Of a DNA stretch of 64,000 nucleotides, positions 25,110 to 31,359 are shown piece after piece. The notes under the pieces were generated by a model, which did not search any database, was not told the DNA's origin, and was given only the letters and a program-made list of their open reading frames with translations. Source of the stretch: Curtobacterium pusillum (lineage in GTDB: Bacteria > Actinomycetota > Actinomycetes > Actinomycetales > Microbacteriaceae); NCBI GenBank assembly GCA_002025645.1, contig CP018783.1:1922001-1986000 (forward strand), given 5' to 3'. A program made the position numbers and the translations under genes. The stretch's first letter is position 1. Every line of letters begins with the position of its first letter.

Positions 25110-25265
25110 CTACGCGGCCACGAGGTACTCGTCCCACTCGGACTGCGGACGCTCGATGCCCCGCACCACCCACGAGGCACCGTGCGGTGCCTTCGGGCGG
25201 AACCGGAGCCGCCAGCCCATCTCCTGCGGGGTGCGATCACCCTTCGTGTTGTTGCACGCCAGGCA
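25110..25265 (-). pseudogene. 3' fragment of the split HNH endonuclease gene
   Basis: It encodes CL followed by ACNNTKGDRTPQEMGW and a further 33 residues, ending in WDEYLVAA and TAG. This is the end of an HNH zinc/catalytic module without its beginning. Joined to the fragment at 31015-31359 over the shared core CAGGCA, it restores a 164-codon frame with no extra bases: ...ENLVACC-LACNNTKGDR... The fragment has no start signal of its own and is cut off by the mobile element. Confidence 0.88.
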
Positions 25266-25279
25266 TTACCTGAACTAAC
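25260..25279. repeat. Element end with attachment core (tnpB-distal side)
   Basis: Core CAGGCA (25260-25265) followed by element end TTACCTGAACTAAC (25266-25279). It pairs with the inverted copy at 31001-31020. Confidence 0.8.
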
Positions 25280-25340
25280 GCGACGAGCATGGTGCTCCCC
25301 GAGTCGGCGAGCAGGCCCGGCGGCACCGACCGTGTCATGG

Positions 25341-25688
25341 TCAACACGGCCGGCGCTTCTCCGTGCTGAAGGCGGCCGACACTCCCCGCGCTCGCGCGGT
25401 AGCGATGGCTGCGATCGGCACTGCCAGGAAGCAGATCAAGACCGCAATCGCCCGGAGATTCCCGAACTCGGTGAGCGGGCTTATATCTGCTGGCGCCAGA
25501 AGAACCAGGATCGCGGTCACCGCGACGGCGACGACTGCAATGCCGCTAACCTCGATGACGGACAGCACGCGAAGGCGTCGTCGAGTCCAGCCGCCGACGC
25601 GCATCAATGTTGTCGCTTGAGCGGCCGAGGCGGAGGTACGTCGAGCGACAACGGTGCATATGAGGATGACTGCCGCGGTCACTCCCAT
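25341..25688 (-). CDS. Small membrane protein, element cargo
   Basis: A 115-aa protein of unknown family. Three hydrophobic segments are visible: residues 1-15 (MGVTAAVILICTVVA), about 38-60 (SGIAVVAVAVTAILVLLAP) and about 70-92 (NLRAIAVLICFLAVPIAAIA), with basic stretches between. The ATG at 25688 lacks a good SD; a GTG two codons on is possible. It lies next to the element end and is divergent from the other small membrane protein. Third codon positions hold more A/T than the core genes. Function unknown. Confidence 0.5.
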   Translation of the reverse strand: MGVTAAVILICTVVARRTSASAAQATTLMRVGGWTRRRLRVLSVIEVSGIAVVAVAVTAILVLLAPADISPLTEFGNLRAIAVLICFLAVPIAAIATARARGVSAAFSTEKRRPC

Positions 25689-25836
25689 CGCCGGCAGGGG
25701 CGTGTCAACCCCATCGCCCCATGCGCTCGTCCGGGCGCACGACGGGACACGATCGGGTAACGGCGTGCGCCGCGACTGCGCAATCCTCGATAGCGCGGAC
25801 GGGCGTTGAAAGACGCGCGTCGACGAGGATGGGACG

Positions 25837-26250
25837 ATGACGGACCCGCAGGAATCTGAAAGTGGCCAGGATTCGGGGCGGGATGCGTCTCGCCCAAATG
25901 CTCGGCTCCGCAGCCAAGAGTCCGACGAAGCGACGATGCGCCGAAGCATCGCTAATGCCTCTCCTTTCAACTTCGGATTCGCGTACAGCGCGCCCGAGAC
26001 CGGCGCAGACCCCGAACGTCCGGTAACCAGGCTTGGACTTGTTTGGCGGATTGTTGCATCGACTGGCCTGGCCGCAGTTGGCATCAACGCCGTGGTAGTC
26101 ATCATTCGGCTGCTCGCTCGGACCGAGCCCGGTTGGGTTGGGGCGCTGGGCATGGCCGTTATCGCGATGCTGGCGCTGGCATACCCCGCCGTCAACGTCG
26201 CCCGGCTCGTGCGTAGCGTTCGCCGGCGACGCCAAGGCCACGCGGTCTAG
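25837..26250 (+). CDS. Small membrane protein, element cargo
   Basis: A 137-aa protein, not recognised. A polar, Ser/Arg/Asp-rich N-terminus (about 65 residues) is followed by two membrane helices (about 70-92 WRIVASTGLAAVGINAVVVII and 100-122) and a basic tail RSVRRRRQGHAV. GAGGA lies 8-9 nt before the ATG. It has the same orientation as the HTH gene downstream. It could be a membrane anchor or immunity-type protein; nothing in the sequence decides this. Confidence 0.6.
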   Translation: MTDPQESESGQDSGRDASRPNARLRSQESDEATMRRSIANASPFNFGFAYSAPETGADPERPVTRLGLVWRIVASTGLAAVGINAVVVIIRLLARTEPGWVGALGMAVIAMLALAYPAVNVARLVRSVRRRRQGHAV

Positions 26251-26374
26251 CCCCTGGGACTTCGACGGCTGAGGCGAGCCGTATAACAGGGGCGAGACCG
26301 TCCGAGCGGACACCGAGCGCGCGATGGAGGCTCGGCAGATCGGGGCCATTGGGTAGGAGCAGTAAGCTTCGGAC

Positions 26375-26716
26375 GTGGCCCGGACCGCGCGGAAGCGCCC
26401 AAGCGAGTTGACCGCCGAGTGGCCGTCGGCGGAGTCCGAGGTACCGTCCGGTGAGTCAGCCCGGCAACTGGCAGTGCGGCTCCGGGACGTCATTGGTGAA
26501 CGTTCGCTTCGCTCTGTTGCCCGAGACGCTGGTGTGGACCACAAGACGCTGTCCGGCATTCTTGATGGGCAGACGTGGGCTGACCTGGAGACGATCTCCA
26601 AACTTGAGTACTCACTCGGGGAAATGCTGTGGATGTACGTGCTGCCTGCGGCGCCGGTGGAGGGGCTTCGGTACACGGTGCGCCGCGCAGCCGCCGTGAT
26701 GGGCGGGGACGCTTAG
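26375..26716 (+). CDS. HTH (XRE-like) protein, element cargo
   Basis: A 113-aa protein. The first 35 residues are polar; a compact helix-turn-helix follows: VRLRDVIGERSLRSVARDAGVDHKTLSGIL (about residues 32-62), the core of an XRE/Cro-like fold. It starts at GTG 6 nt after TAAGCT without SD, so it is probably leaderless. Its last codons overlap the tnpB stop on the opposite strand by 4 nt. It is a candidate regulator of transposition or of the cargo, comparable to an excision control protein. Confidence 0.65.
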   Translation: MARTARKRPSELTAEWPSAESEVPSGESARQLAVRLRDVIGERSLRSVARDAGVDHKTLSGILDGQTWADLETISKLEYSLGEMLWMYVLPAAPVEGLRYTVRRAAAVMGGDA

Positions 26717-29199
26717 CTCGGGGGCCCGATTGTGGGCAGCCCGAGGCTCACGGGACCCGCCTTGTCGATGTCTTCCCTACGGTGCAGCTGCGCGAGCTTG
26801 TTACGGCCGGCATCGAGGCTGATCTGGAGCCCTTCGACTTCCCCGAACCAGCCGTTCTGATTCGCTTCGACGATGCGTTCCTCGAGGTTCTCGACGATTT
26901 CGATGAGTCGCCATTCTTCGCGTGGGTCCATCTGCAGCAGTGAGCAGCGGATGCAGGCGTGCTCGTGGATGCAGTCGGCTCCGTACGCGCGGCCGCAGTT
27001 GCCGAGCGACACCTTCCGTTTCTTGAAGTGGGCGAGGAACGCCTCGGTTTCCTCCGTGGTGGGCTCCCGGTATTCAGCTCCGGGGCGGAGGGCCCGGCGG
27101 CGGTCGATGAACGCGCGGAAGTGCCGGAAGGTCTCCTGCGGGTAGTGGGCGGTATAGCCCTGGGTGGTGTCGAGGTTGTCGTGTCCAAGTACCTTCGCGA
27201 GGATGTGCGGAGGCAGACCTGCGAGGACGGCTTCGGTTGCGAAGATGCGTCGAAGGTCGTGGTTCTGGAACGTGATGGGGTCGCCGTGGTCGTCGACGAT
27301 GCCCGCTTCGGCCGCAGCAAGCCCGAGCTGCCTGAGCACCCATGCCCGATTCACCGGGCGGTTCTCCCCATTCCAGAACCGCTGGAACAGGAACGGCAGC
27401 GGGTCTGAAAGGGTCTTCTCGGCATAGTCATATCGGCGGATCAGCGGGATGGCGCCGGAGCCAGGGTCCCGGACGCGGCTGATGACGGCGTAGAGGGTGG
27501 ACGCCAGCTGCGGGGAGACGTTGATGATGCGTTCTTCGTCGTCCTTCGACGGCGCGATCTGCAGCAGTGGGATGACCTCCCCCGTGTCGGGGAGGCGGAA
27601 CTGGACGAGGCTGAGGTGGGTGATTTCCTCCAACTCCTCGATGCGAACACCGGTTTCGGTCATCAGGGTGAACGCTGCCCACCGCCAGAAGCACTGCTCT
27701 TCCCGGAAGACGATGTCGAACAGGTCTCCGGTGTCGAGGCGTTGCACGAGAATCCCGCCGTGCTTGATAGTGCCGCCCTTCACCCCGCCGAATGCCGCCG
27801 ACTGACTCACCGGTCGAAGCAATCGGACGCCGTCGACGGTAAATTCCGTTCCCGGTTCGACGCTCCGCGTCGCTTCGAGGGCCCGCTTCGTCCACCGGCG
27901 GTCGTCTTCAACCTTGTTCATCAGGATGGGCAGCTTCGGCAGACGGATGCGGGTCCGCTGGTGGCTTTCCGCGCGTTGCTGGGTCTTCCGCTTCGCTTGC
28001 GCCCTCGTGGCAGACGGGCTCACCGGGTTGCGGGAGGCGAACTCCCCGAACCGGTCCGGGTCGGCTTGCGCCCAGTGGTTGATGTCGTAGTAGAACGACC
28101 GGATCGCTCCGACAATGACCGCCCAGTCTTTTCGCGGTTGGCCCTTCTTGTGTCCCACCTGCACCGTCTGGATTCGCTCCACCCACGCCTCGTACTGTTC
28201 CGGGGTCAGGTCGAGGCTGTCGATGCCCGGGTAGAGGTCTTCGAGTTGTGTCCAGAAGTTCGTCAACAGCTTGGTGACGTACCCGACCTTCGTTGGGTAG
28301 TCGAGGCCCTGCGTGCGGACGCGGATGTAGTCCACAAAGAGGTTCCGCATCTTCGGGCTACGGATACCGGTCTTGTCGACGAGGGTCGCAATCGTCTGCT
28401 GCCCCTTCCGCTGACGGGTGCGGAACGTTGTCGGAGCGCCGTCGGGTAGCAGGCCGAGCCATCCCATCGCGTTCCATGCCGCACCGGTGGGTTTCTTCTC
28501 CCGGTTCCCGTCGGCGGCGTCGCGGGCGATGACGAGCTCCTCCGGCGTGATGTCTGCAATGCGGGTCTTCCCGGTCACGGAGAGGATCTGACCGAGCGTC
28601 TGGACGGCTTGCGCGCGCGCTCGCTCTTGCGCGACGCCAGGGGCTGCGTGTTCGGTGCTGACCTCGAGGACGCGGTCGCGTGTGTCTGGGTCGCGGTATT
28701 CGAGGACGTAGTTCGGTAGTCCGCGGAGCCGGACGTGCTGGCGGTGCAGGAAGCCAATGCTCGGCCGGATGGCACCCGTCGCTGCGAGGAGGCCTATACC
28801 CATCGTCGCGTTGCTCCGTGTGTAGGCCAGGCCGGTCGTGGCGTTCCACTCCTCGATCGCCTCCGCGGACCAGTCTTCCCGGAGCTCGATTCGGGACGCA
28901 TGCCACCGTTCATCCCAGTCAGCGCCAGGTAATCCGGCCAGCCATCCGATGGCGAACTTGAACGCTTTTCGTCGAGCCGACCGGTCGACTCTGTTCATGG
29001 TCTTCACGCGCGCTTCGAGGTCGAGCTCGAGCTCCTCGGCCGTATAGAGGCGTTCTGGCCAGTCCGCGAGCCGCTCCAGTTCGAGAGGGGCGGCGTCAAC
29101 GACTTCGGGGCCCATGTCCGGGTCGGGCAGCGGGAGCACCTCTTTGCGGAAGTGTTTCGTCCCCGCTTCCGCAGTCACGCCATTCCCGGGGTCGGTCAT
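26713..29199 (-). CDS. tnpB: Tyrosine recombinase, TnpB-like
   Basis: An 828-aa site-specific recombinase. The catalytic domain is in the C-half: Arg519 (TGVRIEEL), His647-x-x-Arg650 (NHDLRR), His673 (KVLGH) and nucleophile Tyr682 (TTQGY). A cysteine cluster near the C-terminus (NCGRAYGADCIHEHACIRC) resembles the Zn-binding tail of Tn554 TnpB. The long N-half is likely DNA-binding and is larger than the 630 aa of Tn554 TnpB. The ATG at 29199 overlaps the tnpA TGA (ATGA) and has GGAGGAG upstream. All catalytic residues are present, so it may be active. Confidence 0.9.
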   Translation of the reverse strand: MTDPGNGVTAEAGTKHFRKEVLPLPDPDMGPEVVDAAPLELERLADWPERLYTAEELELDLEARVKTMNRVDRSARRKAFKFAIGWLAGLPGADWDERWHASRIELREDWSAEAIEEWNATTGLAYTRSNATMGIGLLAATGAIRPSIGFLHRQHVRLRGLPNYVLEYRDPDTRDRVLEVSTEHAAPGVAQERARAQAVQTLGQILSVTGKTRIADITPEELVIARDAADGNREKKPTGAAWNAMGWLGLLPDGAPTTFRTRQRKGQQTIATLVDKTGIRSPKMRNLFVDYIRVRTQGLDYPTKVGYVTKLLTNFWTQLEDLYPGIDSLDLTPEQYEAWVERIQTVQVGHKKGQPRKDWAVIVGAIRSFYYDINHWAQADPDRFGEFASRNPVSPSATRAQAKRKTQQRAESHQRTRIRLPKLPILMNKVEDDRRWTKRALEATRSVEPGTEFTVDGVRLLRPVSQSAAFGGVKGGTIKHGGILVQRLDTGDLFDIVFREEQCFWRWAAFTLMTETGVRIEELEEITHLSLVQFRLPDTGEVIPLLQIAPSKDDEERIINVSPQLASTLYAVISRVRDPGSGAIPLIRRYDYAEKTLSDPLPFLFQRFWNGENRPVNRAWVLRQLGLAAAEAGIVDDHGDPITFQNHDLRRIFATEAVLAGLPPHILAKVLGHDNLDTTQGYTAHYPQETFRHFRAFIDRRRALRPGAEYREPTTEETEAFLAHFKKRKVSLGNCGRAYGADCIHEHACIRCSLLQMDPREEWRLIEIVENLEERIVEANQNGWFGEVEGLQISLDAGRNKLAQLHRREDIDKAGPVSLGLPTIGPPS

Positions 29200-30338
29200 A
29201 GCTCTCCTCCGAAGAGTCCGCGCATCACCTCGGGGTCGTACCCCCTGGCGATGGGTGCGGTCGAAGGGTCGATACGGGCGCGGCTGAAGTGCTCGAGCAT
29301 CCGCTTGTACACGTCGGTGGGGTGCGGTTCGAGGTAGACCATCGTGGTGTCGAGATGCTCGTGACCCAGGACCCACTGCACGTCCGTGATGGGCAGATTC
29401 GGGTCTTGCACCATCCGGTACGCGGCGGTGTGCCGCAGCTGGTGGAGCGTGTACTTCGTGCCGAGCTTGTCCTGCGCGCGGGTGAAGACCTGCCGGACAG
29501 CGTGATAGTTCAGGTCCCGGTAGGGCTTGCGGAGCGTGAGCCAGACGACATCACCGGAGATGATCCGTCGCGTTCCGATGTAGATCCGCAGGTATACCAT
29601 CGCGTCGGGAGACGCCGGCACCCACTGCTCCTTCTTCGACCCTTTGCGACTCAGGCGAATGAGGTTCTCACCCCAGTTGATGTCGCCGCCGCGGATGTTC
29701 AGCAGTTCACTCGCTCGCGCGCCGGTAGCGAGGTACAGCGACATCAACGCTCGGTCCCGGTTCGTCCCGAGTCCAAGGAACAACCGGTCGAACACCTCGT
29801 CCGGGATGGACCGCGGAGCACGCTTGGGGACCTTCTGCCGACCAACGGCACGCCTGGTGGGGGTGCGGGAGCGGACCTGGTTCAGGCTTGGCCGATATGC
29901 CGGCCCCGCGACTGGAGTGACGATGGGACCGCTACCCGCCCAGGCGTGGAAGTCGTAGAAGGCGGTGACGACGCTCCAGTTGAGGTTGATGGTCCGGGCG
30001 GCGTACCCGCTGCCCTTCGTGCCGCTTGTGCTGCCGCGTTTCGGCGTCGCCACCTGCATCCACCCAATGAAGTCGACGAAGTCCGTCGACGTCGCACGTT
30101 CCCACGTGGTGCCGATCGCCGACAGGAACCGAAACCAGCGCAGCAGCACGTACGCGTAGGAGCGGAGCGTGCCCGGTTCGAAATCATCGACGGCGATGTG
30201 ATGCAGGTACACACTCGCCGCAGGCACCGGTTCCCCGGAGGCGTCGGTGACCTCCCACAGTGCGCGGAGGTGCGGAGCGGAGCGGACGGCGCCGATCACG
30301 GGCACGTCGATCGCGCGCAGGTCACGCGGTAGTTCCAC
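29196..30338 (-). CDS. tnpA: Tyrosine recombinase, TnpA-like
   Basis: A 380-aa recombinase. The N-terminal core-binding domain (about residues 40-170; TLRSYAYVLLRWFRFL, FVDFIGWMQ, TINLNWSVVTAFYDF) follows the Tn554 TnpA pattern. Catalytic set: Arg208 (TGARASELL), His299-x-x-Arg302 (HQLRH), His326 (VLGHEH) and Tyr335 (TTMVY). GTG start at 30338 with GGGAGG upstream; the end overlaps tnpB by 4 nt. TnpA and TnpB probably act together at the CAGGCA core. Confidence 0.9.
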   Translation of the reverse strand: MELPRDLRAIDVPVIGAVRSAPHLRALWEVTDASGEPVPAASVYLHHIAVDDFEPGTLRSYAYVLLRWFRFLSAIGTTWERATSTDFVDFIGWMQVATPKRGSTSGTKGSGYAARTINLNWSVVTAFYDFHAWAGSGPIVTPVAGPAYRPSLNQVRSRTPTRRAVGRQKVPKRAPRSIPDEVFDRLFLGLGTNRDRALMSLYLATGARASELLNIRGGDINWGENLIRLSRKGSKKEQWVPASPDAMVYLRIYIGTRRIISGDVVWLTLRKPYRDLNYHAVRQVFTRAQDKLGTKYTLHQLRHTAAYRMVQDPNLPITDVQWVLGHEHLDTTMVYLEPHPTDVYKRMLEHFSRARIDPSTAPIARGYDPEVMRGLFGGEL

Positions 30339-30360
30339 GGGGCTCCCTCCCCCGTCGCAA

Positions 30361-30398
30361 GAATCCCCACCACAACCAGACGGCCATGGTGGGGATTC
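30361..30398 (-). terminator. Terminator between the element HNH gene and tnpA
   Basis: Perfect 12-bp stem GAATCCCCACCA/TGGTGGGGATTC with a 14-nt loop, two bases after the HNH stop on the minus strand. It should separate HNH expression, driven from the host side, from the recombinase genes. Confidence 0.75.
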
Positions 30399-30400
30399 TA

Positions 30401-30934
30401 TTACCCAGCGAGTTCGAGGACAGAAGCTTTCGCCCACGGTTCGGTGTACTCAGCCCAGGCAGGCCGCTTCCACCGCTTGCTGATCAGTGTCGCGACCGAC
30501 GGTGCCGGCTCCCGGAGTTCGAACGGCAGTTTCCAGCCGAGCTCAGACAGCAGCCGGTCCGCTTTCTTGCAGTTGCACTTCGTGCACGCGACCACCACGT
30601 TGCCCCACGTGTTGGTGCCGCCGCGTGCCCGTGGGATGACGTGGTCGATGGTGTTGCCGTGCTTGAAGCAGTACGCGCAGGTGTAGTCGTAGAGTTCAAG
30701 GACGGCGCGGCGGGTCATCGGGACTGACTTGCGTGGCACGCGGATGAACTGCCGGAGGAGCACCACGTCCGGTTCCGTGTAGACCCGGCCGGCGCTGTGC
30801 ACGAGCCGGTCGCTCTCGGCGAGGACGGCTGCCTTCTCGTTGAGCACGAGCAGAAGCGCACGTCGGGAGGAGATGACGGCCATCGGCTCGTAGCTTGCGT
30901 TGAGGACGAGCGTGCGCCGTTCGCTGCGCTTCAT
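30401..30934 (-). CDS. HNH endonuclease carried by the element (paralogue of its target)
   Basis: A 177-aa HNH protein. Residues 7-60 (RTLVLNASYEPMAVISSRRALLLV... only landmarks given) and the module CAYCFKHGNTIDHVIPRARGG with a second Cys pair (CTKCNCKK) are clearly homologous to the gene the element interrupts; the C-termini differ after LGWKLPF. Zinc cysteines and the catalytic DH are intact. The ATG overlaps the stop of the truncated host gene (ATGA) and has its own GGAGGT 6 nt upstream, so it is translated from the host gene's mRNA. A terminator follows. Cellular role unknown. Confidence 0.9.
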   Translation of the reverse strand: MKRSERRTLVLNASYEPMAVISSRRALLLVLNEKAAVLAESDRLVHSAGRVYTEPDVVLLRQFIRVPRKSVPMTRRAVLELYDYTCAYCFKHGNTIDHVIPRARGGTNTWGNVVVACTKCNCKKADRLLSELGWKLPFELREPAPSVATLISKRWKRPAWAEYTEPWAKASVLELAG

Positions 30935-31359
30935 GCGGTCACCTCCACGCCCTTCTCCATGCGACGGAGGGCGACGAAGGTCAGAAGTGCGAGCAGGACC
31001 GGTAGTTCAGTAAACAGGCAGCAGGCGACGAGGTTCTCCCACGAGTCCTCGCCCCCGCGCGAACGTGGCTGCACGTGGTCGATGGTCGTCGCGTGCCGGT
31101 CGCAGTACGCGCACCGGTTCGCGTCCCGGCGGAGCACACCGCGACGGGACACCGGCACGAGCCGCGAGTGCGGGATGCGGACGTACCGGGTGAGGATGAT
31201 GACGGACGGACGGTCGTAGGTGGACGTCGAGCCCGTGACCGGGTGCTCGAGGTCTGCGGCGACGATGGCGGCCTTCTGGTTCATGACGAGCACGAGGGCC
31301 CGTCGGAACGAGATCACCGCGAGGGGCTCGTAACCGGCGTTGAGGACGAGAGTGCGCAT
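30931..31359 (-). pseudogene. 5' part of the split HNH endonuclease gene, fused to element sequence
   Basis: Codons 1-115 of the host gene (start MRTLVLNAGYEPLAVISF; HNH module CAYCDRHATTIDHVQPRSRGG) are intact up to ENLVACCL. From the core at 31020 the frame runs 27 codons into the element (FTELPVLLALL...) and stops at a TGA that overlaps the element HNH start. The second zinc Cys pair, CNN and the C-terminus are lost, so activity is unlikely. GGAAGGG lies before the ATG at 31359, and host expression signals are kept. Confidence 0.88.
31001..31020. repeat. Element end with attachment core (HNH side)
   Basis: Element end GGTAGTTCAGTAAA (31001-31014), the inverted counterpart of the other end, followed by core CAGGCA (31015-31020), which is also coding sequence of the HNH gene. 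Confidence 0.8.

Follow-up and report, generated by a model that had tools for sequence, protein, structure and literature searches.

A Tn554-related transposon that may replace the HNH nuclease gene it interrupts in Curtobacterium pusillum

Here, we analyzed a stretch of 64,000 nucleotides of the Curtobacterium pusillum genome (contig CP018783.1, positions 1,922,001 to 1,986,000; hereafter the window), in which a conserved HNH endonuclease gene is interrupted by a mobile element encoding two coupled tyrosine recombinases, TnpA and TnpB. Judged by its sequence, this element is probably a target-replacing, Tn554-related transposon, whose cargo HNH gene can displace the host gene. Related elements share one site and one orientation, the site is empty in close relatives, the element has moved recently, its cargo gene is full-length and overlaps the broken host frame, and resident HNH genes of other genomes are mixed with cargo genes in the phylogenetic tree.

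The element interrupts the host gene within its second CxxC pair, at the codon of the first cysteine, in agreement with a previous sequence-only reading of this locus, which had placed the target at the codons of the second zinc-cysteine pair. That reading had also described identical 6-bp cores, inverted ends and two gene halves that rejoin into a clean frame of 164 codons once a single CAGGCA is kept, all of which we recovered: the core CAGGCA is found on the forward strand at both 25260–25265 and 31015–31020, and deletion of 25266–31014 and one core yields an open HNH frame of 164 residues. The features carrying this analysis are as follows (TGCCTG is the core in gene direction).

25266–31014, no strand assigned: entire insert (5,749 bp), present a second time without change on contig C2 (L006, 2558–8306)
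31015–31359, reverse strand: broken host HNH gene, 5′ portion of 115 codons including the core; intact in relatives
25110–25259, reverse strand: broken host HNH gene, 3′ portion and stop codon; part of the rejoined frame
31015–31020, reverse strand: 6-bp core TGCCTG on the side of the 5′ half (tnpA-proximal)
25260–25265, reverse strand: 6-bp core TGCCTG on the side of the 3′ half (tnpA-distal)
31003–31014, reverse strand: tnpA-proximal end (right, read inward), TTTACTGAACTA
25266–25277, forward strand: tnpA-distal end (left, read inward), TTACCTGAACTA, inverted repeat of the other end
30931–31014, reverse strand: in-frame extension of the broken gene, 27 codons plus a TGA overlapping the next ATG (ATGA); overlap in 6/6 copies
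30401–30934, reverse strand: putative replacement (cargo) HNH gene, 177 aa; PF14279 at 3.1e-13; 47% to the host gene
29196–30341, reverse strand: tnpA, tyrosine recombinase, about 381 aa (start inferred)
26713–29199, reverse strand: tnpB, tyrosine recombinase of the long kind, 828 aa; the start codon overlaps the stop codon of tnpA (ATGA)

The comparison with relatives proposed in the earlier reading revealed the empty site. In all nine other genomes of the window's genus in the family sample, the HNH gene is intact with an uninterrupted CCLACNN motif, and the joined flanks of the window align with each genome as a single piece over the junction (97.5% over 1,662 columns with one gap for the closest empty site, L075; 76–91% for the other eight). 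Furthermore, a second copy of the element is located on the 567-kb contig C2 of the same genome (G000), showing 0 differences in 5,749 bp. It interrupts a different HNH gene at the equivalent codon, with the cores TGCCTG (side of the 5′ half) and TGCGGG (other side). The 5′ part of this second target is 41% identical to the host gene of the window and reads the same as the intact HNH gene of the Curtobacterium megaplasmid pS16, while its 3′ part is a near match to it. Because an exact second copy stands at the equivalent codon of another HNH gene, the insertion is not due to chance; a chance match of the cores was rejected based on this copy and the intact relatives. The two identical copies indicate that the element moved recently within the genome. 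The neighbourhood of the C2 copy contains dut, exonuclease and HNH genes common to the Curtobacterium megaplasmids pS16 and D40.

Among the genes of the element, the first also encodes an HNH protein. This protein shares 47% identity with the host protein over 161 aligned positions, and the homology to the resident gene spans nearly the full length, including the N-terminal half. Reading from the broken host gene, the frame runs across the core TGCCTG and a further 27 codons before ending at the TGA within the ATGA of the cargo gene, where a GGAGG is found a short way 5′ of the ATG. The cargo gene is under purifying selection (dN 0.17 and dS 0.92 against the HNH gene of G201; cargo pairs with the G781 element reach a dS of about 1.9), and an alignment of 38 HNH proteins, cargo among them, has 20 invariant columns. 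An Rfam search resulted in three matches, every one below the gathering score.

Related elements were identified by TnpB searches of 299 family genomes, 394 class genomes and GTDB contigs. Altogether, six copies representing five distinct elements are located at an HNH gene, namely those of the window, C2, G608, Agromyces mediolanus JCM 3346, G781 and G679. In 6/6 copies the target is the equivalent HNH codon and the orientation is the same (for G679 judged by the 5′ junction only), and 6/6 carry a full-length HNH cargo gene with the ATGA overlap at the tnpA end. The 8.4-kb element of A. mediolanus (L068) is flanked by both HNH halves and contains the cargo gene, TnpA (47%), TnpB (48%) and a small helix-turn-helix (HTH) protein (50%); both halves, cargo, TnpA, TnpB and HTH protein are likewise present for the 12.2-kb element of G781. 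In the larger G608 element (32.2 kb; TnpA 51%, TnpB 48%), the 3′ part of the HNH gene follows tnpB, and the 5′ part lies 32.2 kb from it, directly ahead of a complete HNH gene. The G679 element is decayed and known from its 5′ junction only, where the HNH 5′ part, the cargo gene and a TnpA fragment are left. The same recombinase lineage thus adjoins HNH halves in other genomes, which is what the sequence-only reading had suggested looking for. Its view of a Tn554-related, site-specific element in an HNH gene stands, but it overlooked the cargo HNH gene, the ATGA overlap, the second copy and the element-type resident genes.

The four HNH-site elements tested group as a single clade with a support of 100 in both recombinase trees (TnpA, 23 rows; TnpB, 25 rows). 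In the genomes with both gene halves (G000, G608, A. mediolanus and G781), the cargo gene is the sole full-length close HNH homologue found. We examined 22 TnpB loci, one of which is that of G608; the other 21, used as comparison, contain no HNH gene, with the contig ending within about 330 bases of tnpA in four of them (L049, L051, L057 and L060). A scan of GTDB contigs with a single TnpB query found no relative, and a two-row TnpB alignment recovered A. mediolanus and a weak match in Saccharomonospora, whose TnpB locus is without an HNH gene. Among plasmids no close DNA match was found, and a phage search with TnpB gave two weak matches.

Besides the invaded genes, we found HNH genes of the element type as residents at loci free of the element. 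The host HNH gene is conserved in the window's family but not universal, as it is matched in 354/398 genomes (321/350 among those of good quality). With regard to DISPLACEMENT of the host gene, a host-type HNH gene is present in 18/28 genomes of genus g55 and an element-type gene in 10/28. The latter share 57–61% with the window cargo, and one of the ten genomes (G781) holds the element itself; nine are element-free. Two of seven genomes of genus g5 also contain an element-type gene (G201, 79%; G697, 73%), and G697 has a second, distant HNH gene (39%) on its contig C2. Eight of the 11 element-free loci were read with their flanks (six of g55, two of g5): here, the gene adjoins the same NlpC-like gene as the host type, and no TnpA or TnpB match was found at E up to 0.01 within 20 kb. 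The NlpC-like gene is also present in the short loci of the remaining three. In a tree of the g55 NlpC gene (28 rows), the element-type state including G781 needs two changes, one of which is forced by well-supported branches.

In a tree of 68 rows, the cargo genes, the element-type residents and two invaded targets fall on one side of a branch (100/93), and a clade made up of the element-type residents alone is rejected (p-AU 1e-182). Groups for this test were defined after seeing an earlier tree of 105 rows; h_L118, h_L121, cargo_G608 and o_L180 were excluded as long branches, and every second of the remaining host and order rows was dropped. Since the residents do not form one clade, genes were probably exchanged between element and chromosome more than once. 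A possible trace of replacement is seen in G201. Its host 5′ region is kept through the start codon, with alignments to three host-type relatives ending 5 bases into the gene, and the host start is followed by a 28-codon leader that terminates on the ATGA with which the element-type gene starts. In G697, the ATGCGCACC start is likewise kept; its frame no longer ends on the overlap. Two side observations concern these resident genes. In G201 (L122, 7085–9487), the element-type HNH gene is separated from the downstream stretch, which is near the gene in two relatives, by about 2.4 kb of additional sequence that may be a relic of the element. In nine genomes of genus g49, the family scan found a weak host-HNH match (E about 1e-25 to 1e-28); two of these sequences were placed in the tree (L116, L117) and fall near the megaplasmid type, possibly reflecting another replacement.

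Several observations weigh against a target-replacing transposon. The host HNH gene is without a match in 44/398 family genomes and is thus not essential family-wide. In the quick tree of 105 rows, the G608 cargo stands apart on a long branch of its own and is not part of the 17-row clade (support 90). In A. mediolanus and G781, the gene that was hit is of the cargo type; for this reason, carrying the HNH gene gives no lasting immunity, and target recoding as a source of immunity of the cargo gene is not supported, given these invasions of element-type genes. A remnant of the host HNH start is absent in the six g55 element-type loci read, so that these loci could stem from ordinary recombination. 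Finally, the ATGA overlap is less telling than its recurrence suggests. Although the leaders of the five distinct elements differ (62–215 nt), shuffled leaders also stop first at the ATGA in 25–51% of cases, given frame and length; with 1/3 per frame, the probability for five elements is about 4e-5 if they are independent, and the elements are related. Moreover, an upstream open reading frame (ORF) ends on the HNH ATGA in 18/18 host-type and 9/9 element-type loci of genus g55, compared with 0/9 loci of the window's genus. Because it is native in some hosts, ATGA coupling alone does not identify the element; the overlap as a mark of the element alone was accordingly weakened as a candidate by the native upstream ORF in all 27 g55 loci. 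Such native coupling rather supports coupled expression as a theme.

The strongest competing explanation assumes that element-type genes on the chromosome are long-standing host genes that spread at the locus through homologous recombination, and that the elements acquired their cargo from hosts of this kind without any replacement by the element. We consider this unlikely, but it draws on several of the points above. Cargo and chromosomal genes are close in pairs (80% between the window cargo and G201, 86% between G781 and G761), the six g55 loci show no host remnant, with the flank homology to a host-type relative restarting about 44 bases before the start codon, and this genus natively has a leader ORF that ends on ATGA. 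However, G201 retains the host start and a leader running onto the ATGA of the element-type gene, G679 represents a decay intermediate, and swaps in two genera at exactly the targeted gene would have to be coincidence.

Alternatively, the cargo HNH protein could serve the element, either as a homing-type nuclease cutting or nicking empty HNH genes or as a helper of TnpA and TnpB, with its likeness to the target only reflecting its origin. The cargo retains the HNH_5/HNH nuclease domain with the conserved C and H residues, the solved chains nearest to the HNH protein are Cas9- and IscB-type HNH domains and one small HNH endonuclease, and the gene always stands at the tnpA end. This explanation nevertheless appears improbable: the similarity of cargo and resident gene includes the N-terminal half, element-type genes are the resident HNH in loci without a recombinase match, and the 21 comparison loci lack an HNH gene (with the four nearby contig ends noted above). 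That the cargo is a useless remnant of imprecise movement, as the varied passengers of the elements might suggest, was already disfavoured and is very hard to reconcile with the same place and overlap in 6/6 copies, the purifying selection and a G608 cargo of another lineage.

Upstream of the HNH gene, we made two further observations. The leader ORF of genus g55 comprises 35–87 codons and ends on ATGA (once GTGA) in 27/27 loci (L107–L109, L111, L136–L140, L142–L159), making a native coupled leader peptide possible in this genus; several of these ORFs span a hairpin upstream of the HNH gene. A strong hairpin followed by a T run was found 5′ of the HNH start, mostly 34–205 nt off, in 15 of 20 distinct loci folded (L090 and L094 were omitted, having no start motif; L085 and L163 are one genome). 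It occurs in host-type and element-type loci alike, for example L124 (about 10550–10510), L127, L070 and L122; none was found in the window, three relatives of its genus and L097. This hairpin may act as an attenuator or mark where a leader transcript ends.

With regard to family placement, the earlier reading had proposed two coupled recombinases matching TnpA and TnpB with their catalytic residues. This is borne out by alignment with a Tn558-like pair (L205; TnpA 21%, E 1.6e-18; TnpB 25% over 304 positions, E 1e-13), in which the R, HxxR, H and Y motifs of both proteins and the C-terminal cysteine motif of TnpB align. TnpC, which had been noted as missing, gave no tblastn match (E up to 10) in four elements; the query was the L205 TnpC reading, which is broken by stops, so that this negative leaves room for a diverged TnpC. 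Based on sequence features, TnpA and TnpB belong to the actinobacterial Tn554-related class, described as having one long and one normal tyrosine recombinase, with some members, including pRHL2, lacking TnpC (PMC3414803). The window element shares with it the adjacent long (828 aa) and normal (about 381 aa) recombinases, and pRHL2 (L041) aligns to it at 42% (TnpA) and 39% (TnpB); it differs in that the available text on this class names no target gene or carried target copy. Tn554, Tn558 and Tn6188 of Firmicutes (available text of PMC3788773) share the tnpA-tnpB order, the catalytic motifs, the TnpB cysteine motif, 6-bp junction sequences and one fixed place in a conserved gene. In contrast to the HNH target with a cargo copy found here, they target radC, with no replacement radC mentioned there; they also have TnpC, and identity is only 21–25%.

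The strand-biased circularizing elements (SEs) and GInts, according to the available parts of PMC10214605 and PMC5385486, share a 6-bp footprint and, in the case of SEs, the combination of a normal and a large tyrosine recombinase, but have four-gene cores, in which a third recombinase-like protein is non-catalytic, and occur in proteobacteria. For SEs, and also for Tn554-related elements, 6 bp from the left of the donor are reported to be copied to the right of the new site (PMC10214605, in the part available). Whereas the incoming 6 bp of SEs lie at the recombinase-distal side, it is the 6 bp of the target that remain there in G781: its tnpA-distal core TGCTTC is the sequence of 9/9 intact relatives, and its tnpA-proximal core is TGCCTG. 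Proximal cores end in CTG or TTG in 6/6 copies. From these cores, the polarity looks opposite to the published rule, if the tnpA side is taken as left, or else the last three bases of the core look element-owned.

Breaking a gene and bringing along a divergent copy has a precedent in the recA mobile element (RME) of Vibrio cholerae S24 (PMC4405046, as far as its available text goes), for which the authors showed function, excision and targeting and cite a further thymidylate-synthase case in Clostridium difficile. RME, too, interrupts a conserved gene at one fixed position and brings an entire, divergent copy of it. It differs in having a phage integrase and a XerS-like recombinase, in being known from one strain, and in a recA copy with a LexA site in its own promoter region; the available text mentions neither an ATGA fusion nor relatives with a displaced gene. 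Here, 6/6 copies carry a complete, putatively functional HNH gene. Our literature searches gave no HNH target for any Tn554-like element, consistent with the earlier remark that this is not known as a described site. As far as these searches go, the HNH target, the replacement copy, the ATGA coupling and the signs of lasting host-gene displacement are new for a Tn554-related element.

The remaining genes of the window element are the following.

26375–26716, forward strand: small HTH protein; domain match weak, below cut-off
25837–26250, forward strand: passenger ORF, 137 aa; no family found

Homologues of the HTH gene occur at the same position in two of the three other elements read whole (Agromyces 50%, G781 48%); none was found in the G608 element. 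Passengers of the other elements, named from their translations, include a sulfatase-like gene in A. mediolanus (L068, 12300–16400) and acetyltransferase-, methyltransferase- and phosphotransferase-like genes in G781 (L167, 4260–11600); the G608 element encodes a protein of 1,228 aa (L070, 4799–8485).

Taken together, we propose the following course for a target-replacing transposon. The TnpA/TnpB pair would insert in one orientation at the second-CxxC codons of HNH_5-type nuclease genes. The expression signals of the host would then read the broken gene, whose frame crosses the core into the element and ends on the ATGA, where ribosomes may re-start on the replacement HNH gene, with tnpA and tnpB downstream in the same direction. 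In this way, the cargo product would stand in for the lost host product and rescue its function; insertion would cost the host little, because the replacement is expressed via the broken gene. Decay of the recombinase genes would leave the cargo HNH gene able to pass from element to chromosome as the resident gene, which in turn would be open to renewed invasion. Whether this transposon lineage lives by swapping the alleles of one host gene, so that the resident HNH of whole lineages is domesticated cargo and the replacement HNH was recruited at least twice (window type and G608 type), is in our view an even call.

Elements that hit conserved genes must pay for the damage, and here the repair seems to be built in by translational coupling. 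Elements with recombinases of only about 48% identity have this coupling to an HNH cargo in common. Snapshots resembling insertion, decay, scar and re-invasion can all be found in public genomes, so that a direct test of whether transposon cargo displaces a host gene is possible. If true, even an ‘orthologue’ present as a single copy at a conserved locus can be of foreign origin.

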